DNA of 64,000 nucleotides, from positions 1 through 64,000 of the forward strand of contig CAKZPA010000040.1 in assembly GCA_937138415.1 (NCBI GenBank), read 5' to 3'. The position numbers and the translations under genes are program-made. Of the stretch, positions 31,813 through 36,285 are shown piece after piece; the stretch's first letter is position 1, and every line of letters starts with the position of its first letter. The notes under the pieces were generated by a model. It did no database searches. It worked only from the letters and a program-made list of their open reading frames with translations, and was not told the DNA's origin. Source of the DNA: an uncultured Nitrospiraceae bacterium (lineage in GTDB: Bacteria > Nitrospirota > Thermodesulfovibrionia > Thermodesulfovibrionales > SM23-35).

Positions 31813-32922
31813 ATGGTCAGGTCGTTTCTGTCGATAGCGATGTCAGCGGTGTCGAACTGCTCGCTCTATTCGAAGGATCACGCGTCAGTTGAGGAACTCG
31901 GACGGAAGGCGTTCTCGATCCTGAACACGCTCCTCGAGGAATCGGAACGGCTCGAACTGATGATCGTCGGTGAAGATCTTATCGTCAACAAATCTCCGCT
32001 CAAGGATATCGGCATTCAGGGGAAGAATTTGCTGAAACGTTTGCGCAAGAAGGGCATCACACGCGTCGATATCCTGCGCGGGGTATCCTATGCAGAAATG
32101 AAACAGTGGATCGCGGGCATCGCGTCCGTCCACGAGGAGATCAAAGGGTCCGCTCATATCAAGGTGGGTACCGTCGATGTGCGCATCGGCGGATTGAGGG
32201 TTGACGGCGAGTTTGTGGCCGATATGGCGGTACCCCCGGGACTCCCGTCGGTCCAGGTCGAAAAAGTGAAAGACCTCTACCAGGGCGTGTCGCCTTTCAA
32301 GAAATTGAACATGACAGGGCTCGAAGACATTGTCGTGAACTTTATCCTCACGTTCAAGAGGGAAGTCAATATCCTGAAGCTCATCAGCCCCGTGAAGTCG
32401 TACAGTGAGTACACGTACACGCACGCAACGAACGTGACCGTGCTCTCCCTGTTCCAGGCCGAGTCGCTCGGCTTCAAGGACGATCTCTTGCGGGATATCG
32501 GGATCGCCGCTCTCCTGCACGATGTGGGGAAGCTCTTCATGTCGAAAGAACTCCTCGAAAAGAAGGTCGCGCTGGACGAGTGGGAACGGAGCGAAATACG
32601 GCTGCATCCCGTTTACGGTGCTAAATTCCTCGCGAAGATGGACGGCGTGCCCCGACTCGCGACGATCGTCGCGATGGAGCACCATCTCAGATACGACGGC
32701 ACGGGGTACCCCGTCTACGCGATGGGGAAGAAGCAGCACCTGTGCAGTCAGATTGTTGCCATCGCTGACTTTTTCGATGCGTTGCGGAGCCAGAGGCCGT
32801 ATCGGAAAGCGCTCGAGGTCAAGGAGGTTCTCGCCCTCATCAAGAAGGATGCGGGGAGCGCGTTCAACCCGTTTCTCGTCGATAATTTTCTGCGTTCGAT
32901 GCAGGCGGCCCTATCGGAGTGA
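31813..32922 (+). CDS. HD-GYP domain phosphohydrolase
   Basis: A 369-residue protein. The N-terminal domain (about residues 15-110) resembles that of the upstream HEAT protein: SLYSKDHASVEELGRKAF, LMIVGEDLIVNKSPL and VDILRGVSYAEMKQWI. The C-terminal HD-GYP domain has the metal pair in AALLHDVGKL near residue 235, the HH of AMEHHLRYDGTGYP near 295, and AIADFFDALRSQRPYR. HD-GYP enzymes hydrolyse cyclic di-GMP, and a PilZ receptor lies 4 kb upstream. The conserved HHExxDGxGYP has HHLRYDG instead, a small change. It overlaps the next gene's start region by translation coupling. Confidence 0.9.
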   Translation: MVRSFLSIAMSAVSNCSLYSKDHASVEELGRKAFSILNTLLEESERLELMIVGEDLIVNKSPLKDIGIQGKNLLKRLRKKGITRVDILRGVSYAEMKQWIAGIASVHEEIKGSAHIKVGTVDVRIGGLRVDGEFVADMAVPPGLPSVQVEKVKDLYQGVSPFKKLNMTGLEDIVVNFILTFKREVNILKLISPVKSYSEYTYTHATNVTVLSLFQAESLGFKDDLLRDIGIAALLHDVGKLFMSKELLEKKVALDEWERSEIRLHPVYGAKFLAKMDGVPRLATIVAMEHHLRYDGTGYPVYAMGKKQHLCSQIVAIADFFDALRSQRPYRKALEVKEVLALIKKDAGSAFNPFLVDNFLRSMQAALSE

Positions 32923-32927
32923 AGGGA

Positions 32928-33254
32928 ATGGCGAAGAAATGCGGTGATTCCGCCGTTCCCATTCCGAGCAGGGAAACGGTGAGACAGAAGATCGTATCCC
33001 TCCTCGAGGGAGGACGCCTCACCGCTCTTGAACTCTCTCTCGAATGCGGTATCCCGGAACGTGATGTGTTCGACCACCTCGGACATATCCAGAAGAGCAT
33101 CGGCAGATCCGGTCAGTCTCTCGTGGTAACTCCTGCGGCGTGCAGGAGGTGCCATTTCGTTTTTCGGAAGCGGGAACGGCTGAAGAAACCGGGACGATGC
33201 CCTGTCTGCCGGAGCGAAACGATCCGCGACCCCGTCTTTTCGATCAAAAAATAA
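32928..33254 (+). CDS. Winged-helix and zinc-ribbon transcription regulator
   Basis: A 108-residue protein with a helix-turn-helix (TVRQKIVSLLEGGRLTALEL, ECGIPERDVFDHL) and a C-terminal zinc ribbon: Cys pairs CRRC and CPVC about 20 residues apart, in AACRRCHFVFRKRERLKKPG. This is the plan of small predicted transcription regulators related to COG3357, otherwise common in archaea. I chose ATG 32928; a GTG at 32919 overlaps the HD-GYP stop. The 3' end overlaps the converging CysRS-like gene by 11 bases. The target is unknown. Confidence 0.8.
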   Translation: MAKKCGDSAVPIPSRETVRQKIVSLLEGGRLTALELSLECGIPERDVFDHLGHIQKSIGRSGQSLVVTPAACRRCHFVFRKRERLKKPGRCPVCRSETIRDPVFSIKK

Positions 33255-34458
33255 CCTGCAGAACCTCGTCTATCTCTCTGAGTGCGTTGATGATGCTGCG
33301 CGCTTCGTGAGGGTGAAGAGACGCCGCGTTCACCGAGGAAATGACGTTCACGACGCCGTCGAATCCGTCGCGGACGCGGAGATCGTTGTCCATGTGTCGG
33401 GCGAAGGCATGCCGGATGGCATCTGCCATGCCGTGCTCCCGTGTGTACCGTTTCCCTGCCCGACGGCGGATGCGACCGACCAGTCTCCTGCAGTTCCTCA
33501 GTCTCTGTACCGCGAGATCCATCAGAGCGTCATCGTAGTCCATCTTTTCCCGGTAGTGGCCGTCGATGAGGAAGAAACGCACGTCCCGGTTATCGTACCC
33601 CTTCGCGCAGAGAGTGTCCGTGTAGATCACGTTCCCCTCGCTCTTCGACATCTTTTCCCCGCGGACGAAGAGGTGGTTGCAGTGCAGCCAGTATTTCGCC
33701 ATAGGAGCCCCCCGAACGGACTCGAGGATCGCTTTCGTATAGTCGTGGTGCCGGTAGAGATTGTCGATGCCCCCGCAGTAGATCGAGAGCGTTTCATCGA
33801 AGAAGTGACTGATCATGCTCGCATCCTGGATATTCCACGCCGGTCGTCCTCTCCCGATCTCGGTGTCCCAGAAACAGGGATCGCCAGGCTTGTAGCCGTG
33901 CCAGAGGATAAAGTCTCCCCGATTCCACTGAACGCCCGGGTATGTGTCGCGGTGGAAACGCCTCTTCTTGCGCGGCCAGCGCGACATGTCGAGTCCGAAG
34001 AGCCTGCCGAAATCCGGAAACGTGAGAGGATCGAAATAGGCGTTTCCGCCGTGCCAATAGGCATAGCCTTTTTGAACGAGCGCGCGCGTGAGGCGCGCCG
34101 CGTCTTCGACGTGTTCCGACGCCCGCGGCAAAAAATCCGGCTCCTTCATTCTGAGGAAGTTCATCTCCCGGAGGAAGTCTTCGATGTTCCTCGACGTGAG
34201 TTGAAGGAGGGTCATCTTCTTCCTCTCGGCTTCGGCAATCGCCTTGTCTTCCACATCGGTGAGACTCATTCCCCTCTGAACGCGGTAACCCGCATACATG
34301 AGGTAGCGCACGAGGATATCCTCGAACAGGAACGTTCTGAAATTGCCGATATGGGCTCTTTGATACACGGAGGGACCGCACGTGAATACGGTGACCATGT
34401 CTCTCCGCACGGGAGAGAACGGTTCCATGTGTCTGCCGAGGGTGTTGAACAGGTGCAT
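33244..34458 (-). CDS. CysRS-like class I ligase lacking two zinc ligands and the anticodon-binding tail
   Basis: A 404-residue protein clearly related to cysteinyl-tRNA synthetase. It has VFTCGPSVY with the first zinc cysteine, the HIGH-type HIGNFRTFLF, GMSLTDVEDKAI, and the KMSKS motif in GEKMSKSEGN. The usual IECSAM motif, which carries the second zinc cysteine, reads NIQDASMI, and the PHHENE motif reads RHHDYT, so the Glu ligand is replaced by Thr. The HGGGIDL motif reads YCGGIDN. The protein also ends after the helical linker, about 55 residues short of E. coli CysRS (461), so it lacks the anticodon-binding domain, as MshC does. It may be a divergent CysRS or an amino-acid ligase acting on a non-tRNA substrate. 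It converges with the zinc-ribbon gene. The ATG at 34458 has no clear ribosome site. Confidence 0.8.
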   Translation of the reverse strand: MHLFNTLGRHMEPFSPVRRDMVTVFTCGPSVYQRAHIGNFRTFLFEDILVRYLMYAGYRVQRGMSLTDVEDKAIAEAERKKMTLLQLTSRNIEDFLREMNFLRMKEPDFLPRASEHVEDAARLTRALVQKGYAYWHGGNAYFDPLTFPDFGRLFGLDMSRWPRKKRRFHRDTYPGVQWNRGDFILWHGYKPGDPCFWDTEIGRGRPAWNIQDASMISHFFDETLSIYCGGIDNLYRHHDYTKAILESVRGAPMAKYWLHCNHLFVRGEKMSKSEGNVIYTDTLCAKGYDNRDVRFFLIDGHYREKMDYDDALMDLAVQRLRNCRRLVGRIRRRAGKRYTREHGMADAIRHAFARHMDNDLRVRDGFDGVVNVISSVNAASLHPHEARSIINALREIDEVLQVIF

Positions 34459-34581
34459 CGGTTAAGGATGCCCGGGACTGCGCAGTGCGGCCGCAAACCT
34501 GGCGGCATTCATTTTATCACAATCGAGGGGGTTGGGGGTTCTCCTGTTTCGCTTCTGTTTTCTGTATCATATACGTGACCG

Positions 34582-35040
34582 ATGGCGACCGACAAAGTGA
34601 AGAGTCTCGTCGACGAGGGAAAAAGCGCGCTCGGTCGGGGAGACACGCTGACGGCGCTCTCCCTCTTTGAAAAAGCGGCAGAGACCCCGGGTGATCTCTC
34701 GGCGCGCTCCTTTCTCGCGTATTGCATGGCGAAGGAGCGCGGACTCGCGGCGCGCGGGATCGCAGTGTGCAGGGAATGTCTCGAGAGGGAACCCGATAAT
34801 GCTCTTCACTACCTCAACCTCGGAAGGATTTATCTGATCATGAGGAAGCGCGGAGAGGCGATCGCGGTCTTCAGGGAAGGTTTGAAGCGCGAACGAAATG
34901 AGGATATCGTTGCCGAACTGAACCGGCTCGGCGTGAGGAGCGCACCTGTTCTCCGCTTTCTGAGCAGGAACAATCCGATCAACAAATATCTCGGCATTCT
35001 CCTCACGATGCTGAAGATTCGCTCGTCGTCCTGCCGTTGA
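34582..35040 (+). CDS. TPR-repeat protein, 152 aa
   Basis: A small helical protein with two to three tetratricopeptide-like repeats (LVDEGKSALGRGDTLTALSL, ALHYLNLGRIYLIMRKRGEA and a partial one) and a hydrophobic, basic tail (INKYLGILLTMLKIR). It has no signal peptide. Such proteins act as scaffolds; the partner is unknown. It lies between the CysRS-like gene (divergent) and tyrS. The start has no ribosome site. A TATACG lies six bases upstream, similar to the leaderless-type starts noted for dnaE and tyrS, but no -35 box is obvious. Confidence 0.75.
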   Translation: MATDKVKSLVDEGKSALGRGDTLTALSLFEKAAETPGDLSARSFLAYCMAKERGLAARGIAVCRECLEREPDNALHYLNLGRIYLIMRKRGEAIAVFREGLKRERNEDIVAELNRLGVRSAPVLRFLSRNNPINKYLGILLTMLKIRSSSCR

Positions 35041-35073: not shown

Positions 35074-36285
35074 ATGGTGAAGCCGGAAGAACAGCTTGCA
35101 ATCATCAAGCGGGGTGCCGTGGAGATCATCGTCGAGGAAGATCTCCTCGGAAAGATCGAGAAGTCGTATCGCGACGGCAGACCGCTCAGGATCAAAGCGG
35201 GATTCGATCCGACCGCGCCCGACATCCATCTCGGCCACACCGTGCTCCTCGAGAAGATGCGGCAATTCCAGGAACTCGGACACGAGGTGATCTTCCTCAT
35301 CGGTGATTTTACGGGTATGATCGGCGATCCGAGCGGGAAGAGCGAGATGCGGAAACCGCTCACGCGCGAGGAAGTGATCGAGAACGCGAAGACGTACCGT
35401 GTGCAGATCGCGAAGATTCTCGATCCCGAGAGGACGAGGGTTGCGTTCAACTCGGAGTGGATGGAGACGATGACCGCATCGGAGATGATCCGGCTCGCGA
35501 GCAGGTACACCGTCGCGCGCATGTTGGAACGCGAGGATTTCAGAACGCGTTGGGTGAACCAAAACCCTATCGGTATCCACGAATTCCTCTATCCATTGAT
35601 ACAGGGGTACGACTCCGTGGCGTTGCATGCCGATGTCGAATTGGGCGGGACAGATCAGAAATTCAACCTTATGGTCGGTCGGGAACTCCAGAGAGAGTAC
35701 GGACAGGAAGCGCAGTGCATCGTCCTCATGCCTCTCCTCGAGGGTCTGGACGGCGTCAAGAAGATGAGCAAGAGCCTCGGCAATTACATAGGCATCACCG
35801 AGCCCCCGTCCGAAATGTTCGGAAAGATCATGTCGATCAACGATGACCTGATGCTCAGGTACTACGAACTGCTGAGCCACATTTCGCTCGAGGAGTTCGA
35901 GACGCTCAAAAAGGGGCTGGGCGACGGGACGGTCCATCCTAAAGCGGCGAAGGAGACCCTCGCGTTCGAGATCGTGGAGCGATACTGGGGGAGGGACGAG
36001 GCGGTGCGTGCCAGAAACGAGTTCGAGCACGTCTTCCGCGGAAAAGGGCTCCCCGATCACGTCCCGACGGTCTCGCTCCGATGGGAAGAAAAGGAAATGT
36101 GGGTACCGAAGATCATGAAGCTCTCCGGTCTCACGGCGAGCACAGGTGAAGCCCTCAGATTGATCAGACAGGGCGGGGTGACGGTGAACGAGAAGAAGAT
36201 CGAGGACCCGGACACCGCGCTGCCGGCGGGCCGCTACCTCTTCAAGGTCGGAAAGAGAAAATTTCTCTCGGTGCAGGCGGTCTAG
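35074..36285 (+). CDS. tyrS: Tyrosyl-tRNA synthetase
   Basis: TyrRS charges tRNA-Tyr. The 403-residue protein has [20 protein letters not shown] with the HIGH-equivalent HLGH near residue 50, tyrosine-pocket segments [25 protein letters not shown] in [13 protein letters not shown] near 230, and a C-terminal S4 domain ([19 protein letters not shown]). It belongs to the longer TyrRS class (TyrZ-like). The start at 35074 has no ribosome site; see the promoter. It converges with the Nudix gene with a 3-base gap and no terminator between them. Confidence 0.97.

Follow-up and report, generated by a model that had tools for sequence, protein, structure and literature searches.

An apparently undescribed family of proposed CysRS-derived ligases, probably acting outside translation, with an altered zinc site

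The zinc ligands of CysRS are C28, C209, H234 and E238 in E. coli numbering. GluQ-RS, which has no anticodon-binding domain, glutamylates queuosine in tRNA-Asp. To our knowledge, MshC is so far the well-characterised CysRS-derived amide ligase. Aravind et al. (2010) asked whether MshC is a one-off, and MetRS paralogues accompanied by a cupin and a lysine 6-monooxygenase have been proposed from gene context as a non-ribosomal amide ligase (PMC2922099). In Desulfobacterales, the gene for CysRS* accompanies selB* and selC*; the enzyme has no anticodon-binding domain and works with an opal selC* (PMC7609411). Zur-regulated CysRS paralogues exist in which the zinc ligands are kept (PMC2770081). Here we describe a CysRS-derived, probably non-translational ligase family that is apparently undescribed; no description of it was found in the open-access literature searched, which does not by itself prove novelty.

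The window analyzed is a 64,000-nucleotide stretch of DNA from an uncultured Nitrospiraceae bacterium, whose genome assembly (2.11 Mb, 57 contigs) is 100% complete. At 33244..34458 on the minus strand it carries a CysRS-like ligase gene encoding 404 aa, a single-gene unit supported by its open reading frame, Pfam/NCBIfam matches and 44 orthologues; the first-pass annotation had placed this reading frame correctly, without giving its strand. The protein matches Pfam tRNA-synt_1e (E=1.7e-72) and scores 298.1 bits against TIGR00435 cysS, below the equivalog cut-off of 340. That profile is covered only at 1-401 of its 466 positions, indicating that the C-terminal anticodon-binding domain is missing, and the alignment to E. 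coli CysRS (1li5) stops at residue 391 of 461. The shortfall of about 55 residues estimated at first reading is close to the difference of about 57 residues from E. coli CysRS (461 aa) but too small for that from the canonical copy in the same genome (about 80 residues). A search for a second canonical cysS, proposed at the same time, located this copy on contig 11; it encodes 484 aa with all four zinc ligands and the C-terminal domain. The lack of any other cysS, on which the first-pass annotation had made the refutation of its own reading depend, is thereby ruled out. In many genomes of the order (L015, L025 and others) canonical CysRS carries an N-terminal hexapeptide-repeat acyltransferase fusion that looks like serine acetyltransferase (CysE); the cysS of the window genome is unfused. 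Upstream of the ligase gene, and divergent from it, are a TPR gene (34582-35040) and tyrS (35074-36285). Downstream is a convergent PF0610-like winged-helix/zinc-ribbon gene (32919-33254), preceded by an HD-domain gene and overlapping the end of the ligase gene by ~11 bp. A 423-codon open frame antisense to the ligase gene (33307-34578, plus strand) is most likely a codon-use effect in a G+C-rich gene and no gene itself.

The family's 44 members, from two phyla, share 43-61% identity with the window copy. Twelve of 60 relatives, spanning four families of one order, have an orthologue with 53-61% identity. Of the 396 genomes of the phylum, 26 contain a 39-base degenerate motif, and these all belong to the same order; in a second phylum the motif was found in 9 of 297 genomes, the two phyla being distinguished by non-overlapping genome handles. 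A protein search of one class of the second phylum yielded six further members. Full-length members are all about 401-419 aa. No relative was found in viral contigs. Plasmid matches were all below 60% identity and, where the gene was named, nearly all were cysS; in the 502 Klebsiella records of the plasmid collection, a CysRS-like gene ~32% identical to the query was seen on many large plasmids, often with no gene listed. Judging from the sequences, databases probably list genes of the family as a second cysteine--tRNA ligase.

To compare the active sites, residue equivalences were taken from a phmmer alignment to E. coli CysRS (1li5). The motifs TCGPSVY, HIGNFRT and KMSKS of a CysRS-type core, together with NIQDASMI and RHHDYT, are all present as first quoted. 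The ATP-binding signature HIGN (34342..34353; this and the following positions are on the minus strand) and the KMSKS signature (33640..33654) are invariant in the family apart from I/V/L at one place in the former and S/T at one in the latter. Two of the four zinc ligands are changed, as the first-pass annotation had stated: C209 is replaced by Asp212 (33823..33825; D in 44/44 readable members) and E238 by Thr241 (33736..33738), a position occupied in the family by S, T or N, with one L and one unreadable residue as exceptions. Kept are Cys27, the equivalent of ligand Cys28 (34378..34380; C in 43/43 readable members), and His237, the equivalent of ligand His234 (33748..33750; H in 44/44). What the first reading of this site had missed is the replacement of CysRS His224 by an invariant Cys228 (33775..33777; C in 44/44), which is also present in members recovered through protein search instead of the motif pattern. 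The search motif includes C228 and H237 and excludes C27 and D212, and six members came from protein search alone, so the invariance is not circular.

Because C27, D212, C228 and H237 are invariant wherever they could be read, the CysRS-like metal site looks rewired, not lost. The change of C209 to Asp and that of H224 to Cys would fit a swap of metal ligands, and with a new invariant Cys at 224 beside the altered C209, a rewired site fits as well as a lost one. The MshC and CysK fusion sequences that were read retain the Cys209 equivalent and have at position 224 Gln, His or another residue, never Cys. The E238 change alone is not diagnostic, since MshC, a genuine cysteine ligase, has Ser there; a Ser or Thr at this position is MshC-like and thus no argument against cysteine. 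The earlier step from a changed zinc set to another amino acid is therefore not borne out, the E238 change being shared with a cysteine-using enzyme and the C209 change being accompanied by a new Cys. A metal is probably still held at the site, and the amino acid is most likely cysteine or one with another metal-binding side chain.

That 44 orthologues keep these residues argues that the change is neither chance nor decay. This bears on the idea that the protein is a non-catalytic relic or a regulatory protein derived from CysRS, for which one member could be cited: the copy at G017:C372:9956-11163 is interrupted by in-frame stops in its assembly, reflecting either a pseudogene or an assembly error. 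Against this, the 44 members, which come from two phyla, have kept HIGN, KMSKS and the pocket, and mean identity is 59-77% in the catalytic regions versus 33% in the helical domain, which makes such a relic or regulatory protein very improbable.

An AlphaFold model built from the window's own family alignment (pLDDT 87.9) most closely matches CysRS in the PDB (8qhp, TM 0.88), with MshC at 0.81-0.84, and retains the helical bundle. Its least certain loop, residues 167-177, lies within the family's most conserved stretch (77% mean identity) and includes the family-specific RFHRDTYPG sequence (33934..33960, minus strand), where model confidence is lowest. The coincidence of lowest model certainty with highest conservation suggests that this loop may be substrate-dependent. 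In a quick ML tree the family is recovered as a single clade (SH-aLRT 100) whose stem is 1.76 changes per site long. Its nearest group is the CysK-CysRS fusion proteins (99), and it is clearly separated from its hosts' own canonical CysRS; MshC groups with canonical CysRS on a very long branch, and with branches this long the deeper placement is unsure. In the second phylum, a CysK-CysRS fusion of ~780 aa is often found as the second CysRS (L151 G403:C1:1709146; L153 G404:C12; L201-L214). These fusions have lost E238, and the G403 copy KMSKS as well; they may be another non-standard family. The protein is not MshC, and direct kinship with MshC is not supported: the window protein scores 167 bits against TIGR03447 (MshC), below the cut-off of 485; the second Cys of the MshC zinc ligand set (Cys, Cys, His) corresponds to Asp212; and a search for MshA in the window genome gave nothing above cut-off (best 68 of 462.5 bits).

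Gene context provided a link to export. In 20 of 46 loci, from both phyla, the gene immediately upstream of the ligase gene encodes a MATE transporter and shares its strand; the gap between the two is mostly ~100 bp at most. The MATE neighbour in G002 scores 237.7 bits against TIGR00797 matE (cut-off 147.4), and the next best named family, YeeO/EmmdR, is below its own cut-off. When 48 genomes were searched with the MATE protein (E<=1e-40), the subfamily was present in 11 of 25 ligase-bearing genomes and in none of 23 ligase-free order-mates (one-sided exact p about 2e-4, worked out by hand and uncorrected for kinship). In 5 of the 11 MATE-bearing ligase genomes the MATE gene is located away from the ligase gene, and among bearers without an adjacent MATE, 5 of 19 have one elsewhere versus 0 of 23 (p about 0.014, likewise by hand and uncorrected). 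MATE without the ligase was thus never seen (0/23) and the ligase without MATE is common, so dependence on the partner is stronger for the exporter than for the ligase. Phosphohexomutase (7 loci), RibD and receiver-SPOR neighbours were rejected as functional partners, as they occur only in the window's family (f1); this neighbourhood looks like inherited gene order, not function. In three members of a distant subfamily (L172, L173, L178) a small ferritin-like gene that resembles encapsulin cargo follows the ligase gene; three distant members are too few for it to be taken as a partner.

We consider a CysRS-derived ligase acting outside translation to be the best reading, with its chances of being right and wrong about evenly balanced. 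The ATP-activation motifs are intact and a separate canonical CysRS is available. At least 43 further bacteria share the protein, and its gene often forms an operon-like unit with that of an exporter; it therefore probably makes a small molecule instead of taking part in protein synthesis. Of the first-pass annotation's proposal of an undescribed amino-acid ligase, the ligase part is supported by the canonical cysS, the conserved family with its altered pocket, the MATE link and the lack of a description in the literature searched; the step to another amino acid goes beyond these results. Against a non-translational ligase, the MATE subfamily was not found in the window genome (E<=1e-40) and is absent from about half of the other ligase-bearing genomes, comparison of the family loci found no acceptor-making gene shared across them, and the protein is basic where MshC is acidic.

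This difference in charge is pronounced: the family has a median pI of 9.5 and a net charge of +16, compared with pI 5.8 and -9.5 for canonical CysRS cores and pI 5.0 and -22 for MshC. A high pI would be less suited to a small sugar as partner than to RNA or an acidic carrier protein, and leaves a nucleic-acid, phospholipid or acidic carrier-protein acceptor possible. The protein could accordingly be pictured as a truncated synthetase that, like GluQ-RS, aminoacylates its target with no anticodon recognition; the target could be a special tRNA, a tRNA-like RNA or a modified nucleoside. Its basic charge and retained helical bundle would be in keeping with such a role; however, the distant subfamily has a neutral median pI of 7.6, the link to an exporter suggests a small product, and the family loci were found to share neither an RNA gene nor a tRNA-modifying gene. 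On balance we regard an RNA substrate as fairly unlikely.

It is also conceivable that the protein is a second CysRS still making Cys-tRNA, either as a CysRS* for a selC* tRNA-Cys or as a back-up during zinc shortage. The Desulfobacterales CysRS* likewise lacks the anticodon-binding domain (PMC7609411), and the window genome has a selC* tRNA-Cys, with a GCA and not an opal (UCA) anticodon. Neither a SelB-type GTPase motif nor selC* was found beside the ligase gene at the 39 family loci checked, and selC*-GCA is frequent in order-mates without the ligase gene (e.g. G004, G013, G026, G028, G043). As selC*-GCA occurs in genomes both with and without the ligase, selC*/CysRS* was rejected as a dedicated partner. 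Zur-regulated CysRS paralogues offer a precedent for a zinc-shortage back-up, but those reported retain their zinc ligands (PMC2770081), and on this ground that role was rejected; in the present family two core CysRS ligands are replaced throughout. A second CysRS is therefore quite unlikely. Regarding the tRNAs themselves, Rfam tRNA-Sec searches of 67 genomes gave 20 second hits that were read, all of them selC*-type tRNA-Cys(GCA), and twenty genomes of the order have such a tRNA. One with a GCA anticodon and U73 lies at 1501-1598 of L077, minus strand (G000:C36:119382-119479), and was missed by ARAGORN; a true tRNA-Sec is also present (G000:C35:24649-24742).

Returning to a ligase that acts outside translation, the enzyme would activate an amino acid as aminoacyl-adenylate and then, in the way MshC works, transfer the aminoacyl group to something other than an ordinary tRNA. 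Where a MATE protein is present, it would export the resulting conjugate. In the window genome, with no MATE found, the product would stay inside or leave another way. A more specific version, a new ligase class in which the rebuilt site (Cys27, Asp212, Cys228, His237) selects a non-cysteine amino acid and joins it to a small acceptor, with the product secreted through a dedicated MATE protein, is tentative and on the unlikely side. If the ligase assignment is true, the family would be the second, apparently independent, case of a CysRS-derived ligase. The rebuilt metal pocket would bear directly on amino-acid choice by class-I synthetases, and the gene would provide a handle on a probably secreted metabolite of uncultured, poorly known anaerobes.

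Compared with canonical CysRS (TIGR00435; 1li5, 8qhp), the family shares the catalytic fold, the HIGN and KMSKS signatures, Cys27, His237 and the helical bundle, and differs in having no anticodon-binding domain, in its C209 to Asp, H224 to Cys and E238 to Thr, Ser or Asn changes, in its low identity (31-36%) and basic charge, and in a new conserved loop, R-F-x-x-D-T-Y-P-G. MshC (TIGR03447; 3c8z, 8hfm) is similarly CysRS-derived, of similar length and without an anticodon-binding domain, and has a non-Glu residue (Ser) at the E238 position, whereas it keeps the Cys209 equivalent, has Gln at 224, is acidic and appears elsewhere on the quick tree. CysRS*, which also comes from anaerobes, is likewise a second CysRS-like protein lacking an anticodon-binding domain; its linkage to selB*/selC* was seen at none of the family loci checked, and it is set apart here by its description and not by sequence. 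The CysK-CysRS fusions are nearest on the quick tree and have also lost the E238 ligand, but are fused to cysteine synthase and keep the C-terminal region and Cys209. The MetRS paralogues, too, are class-I synthetase paralogues, differing in their MetRS ancestry and in their gene neighbours.
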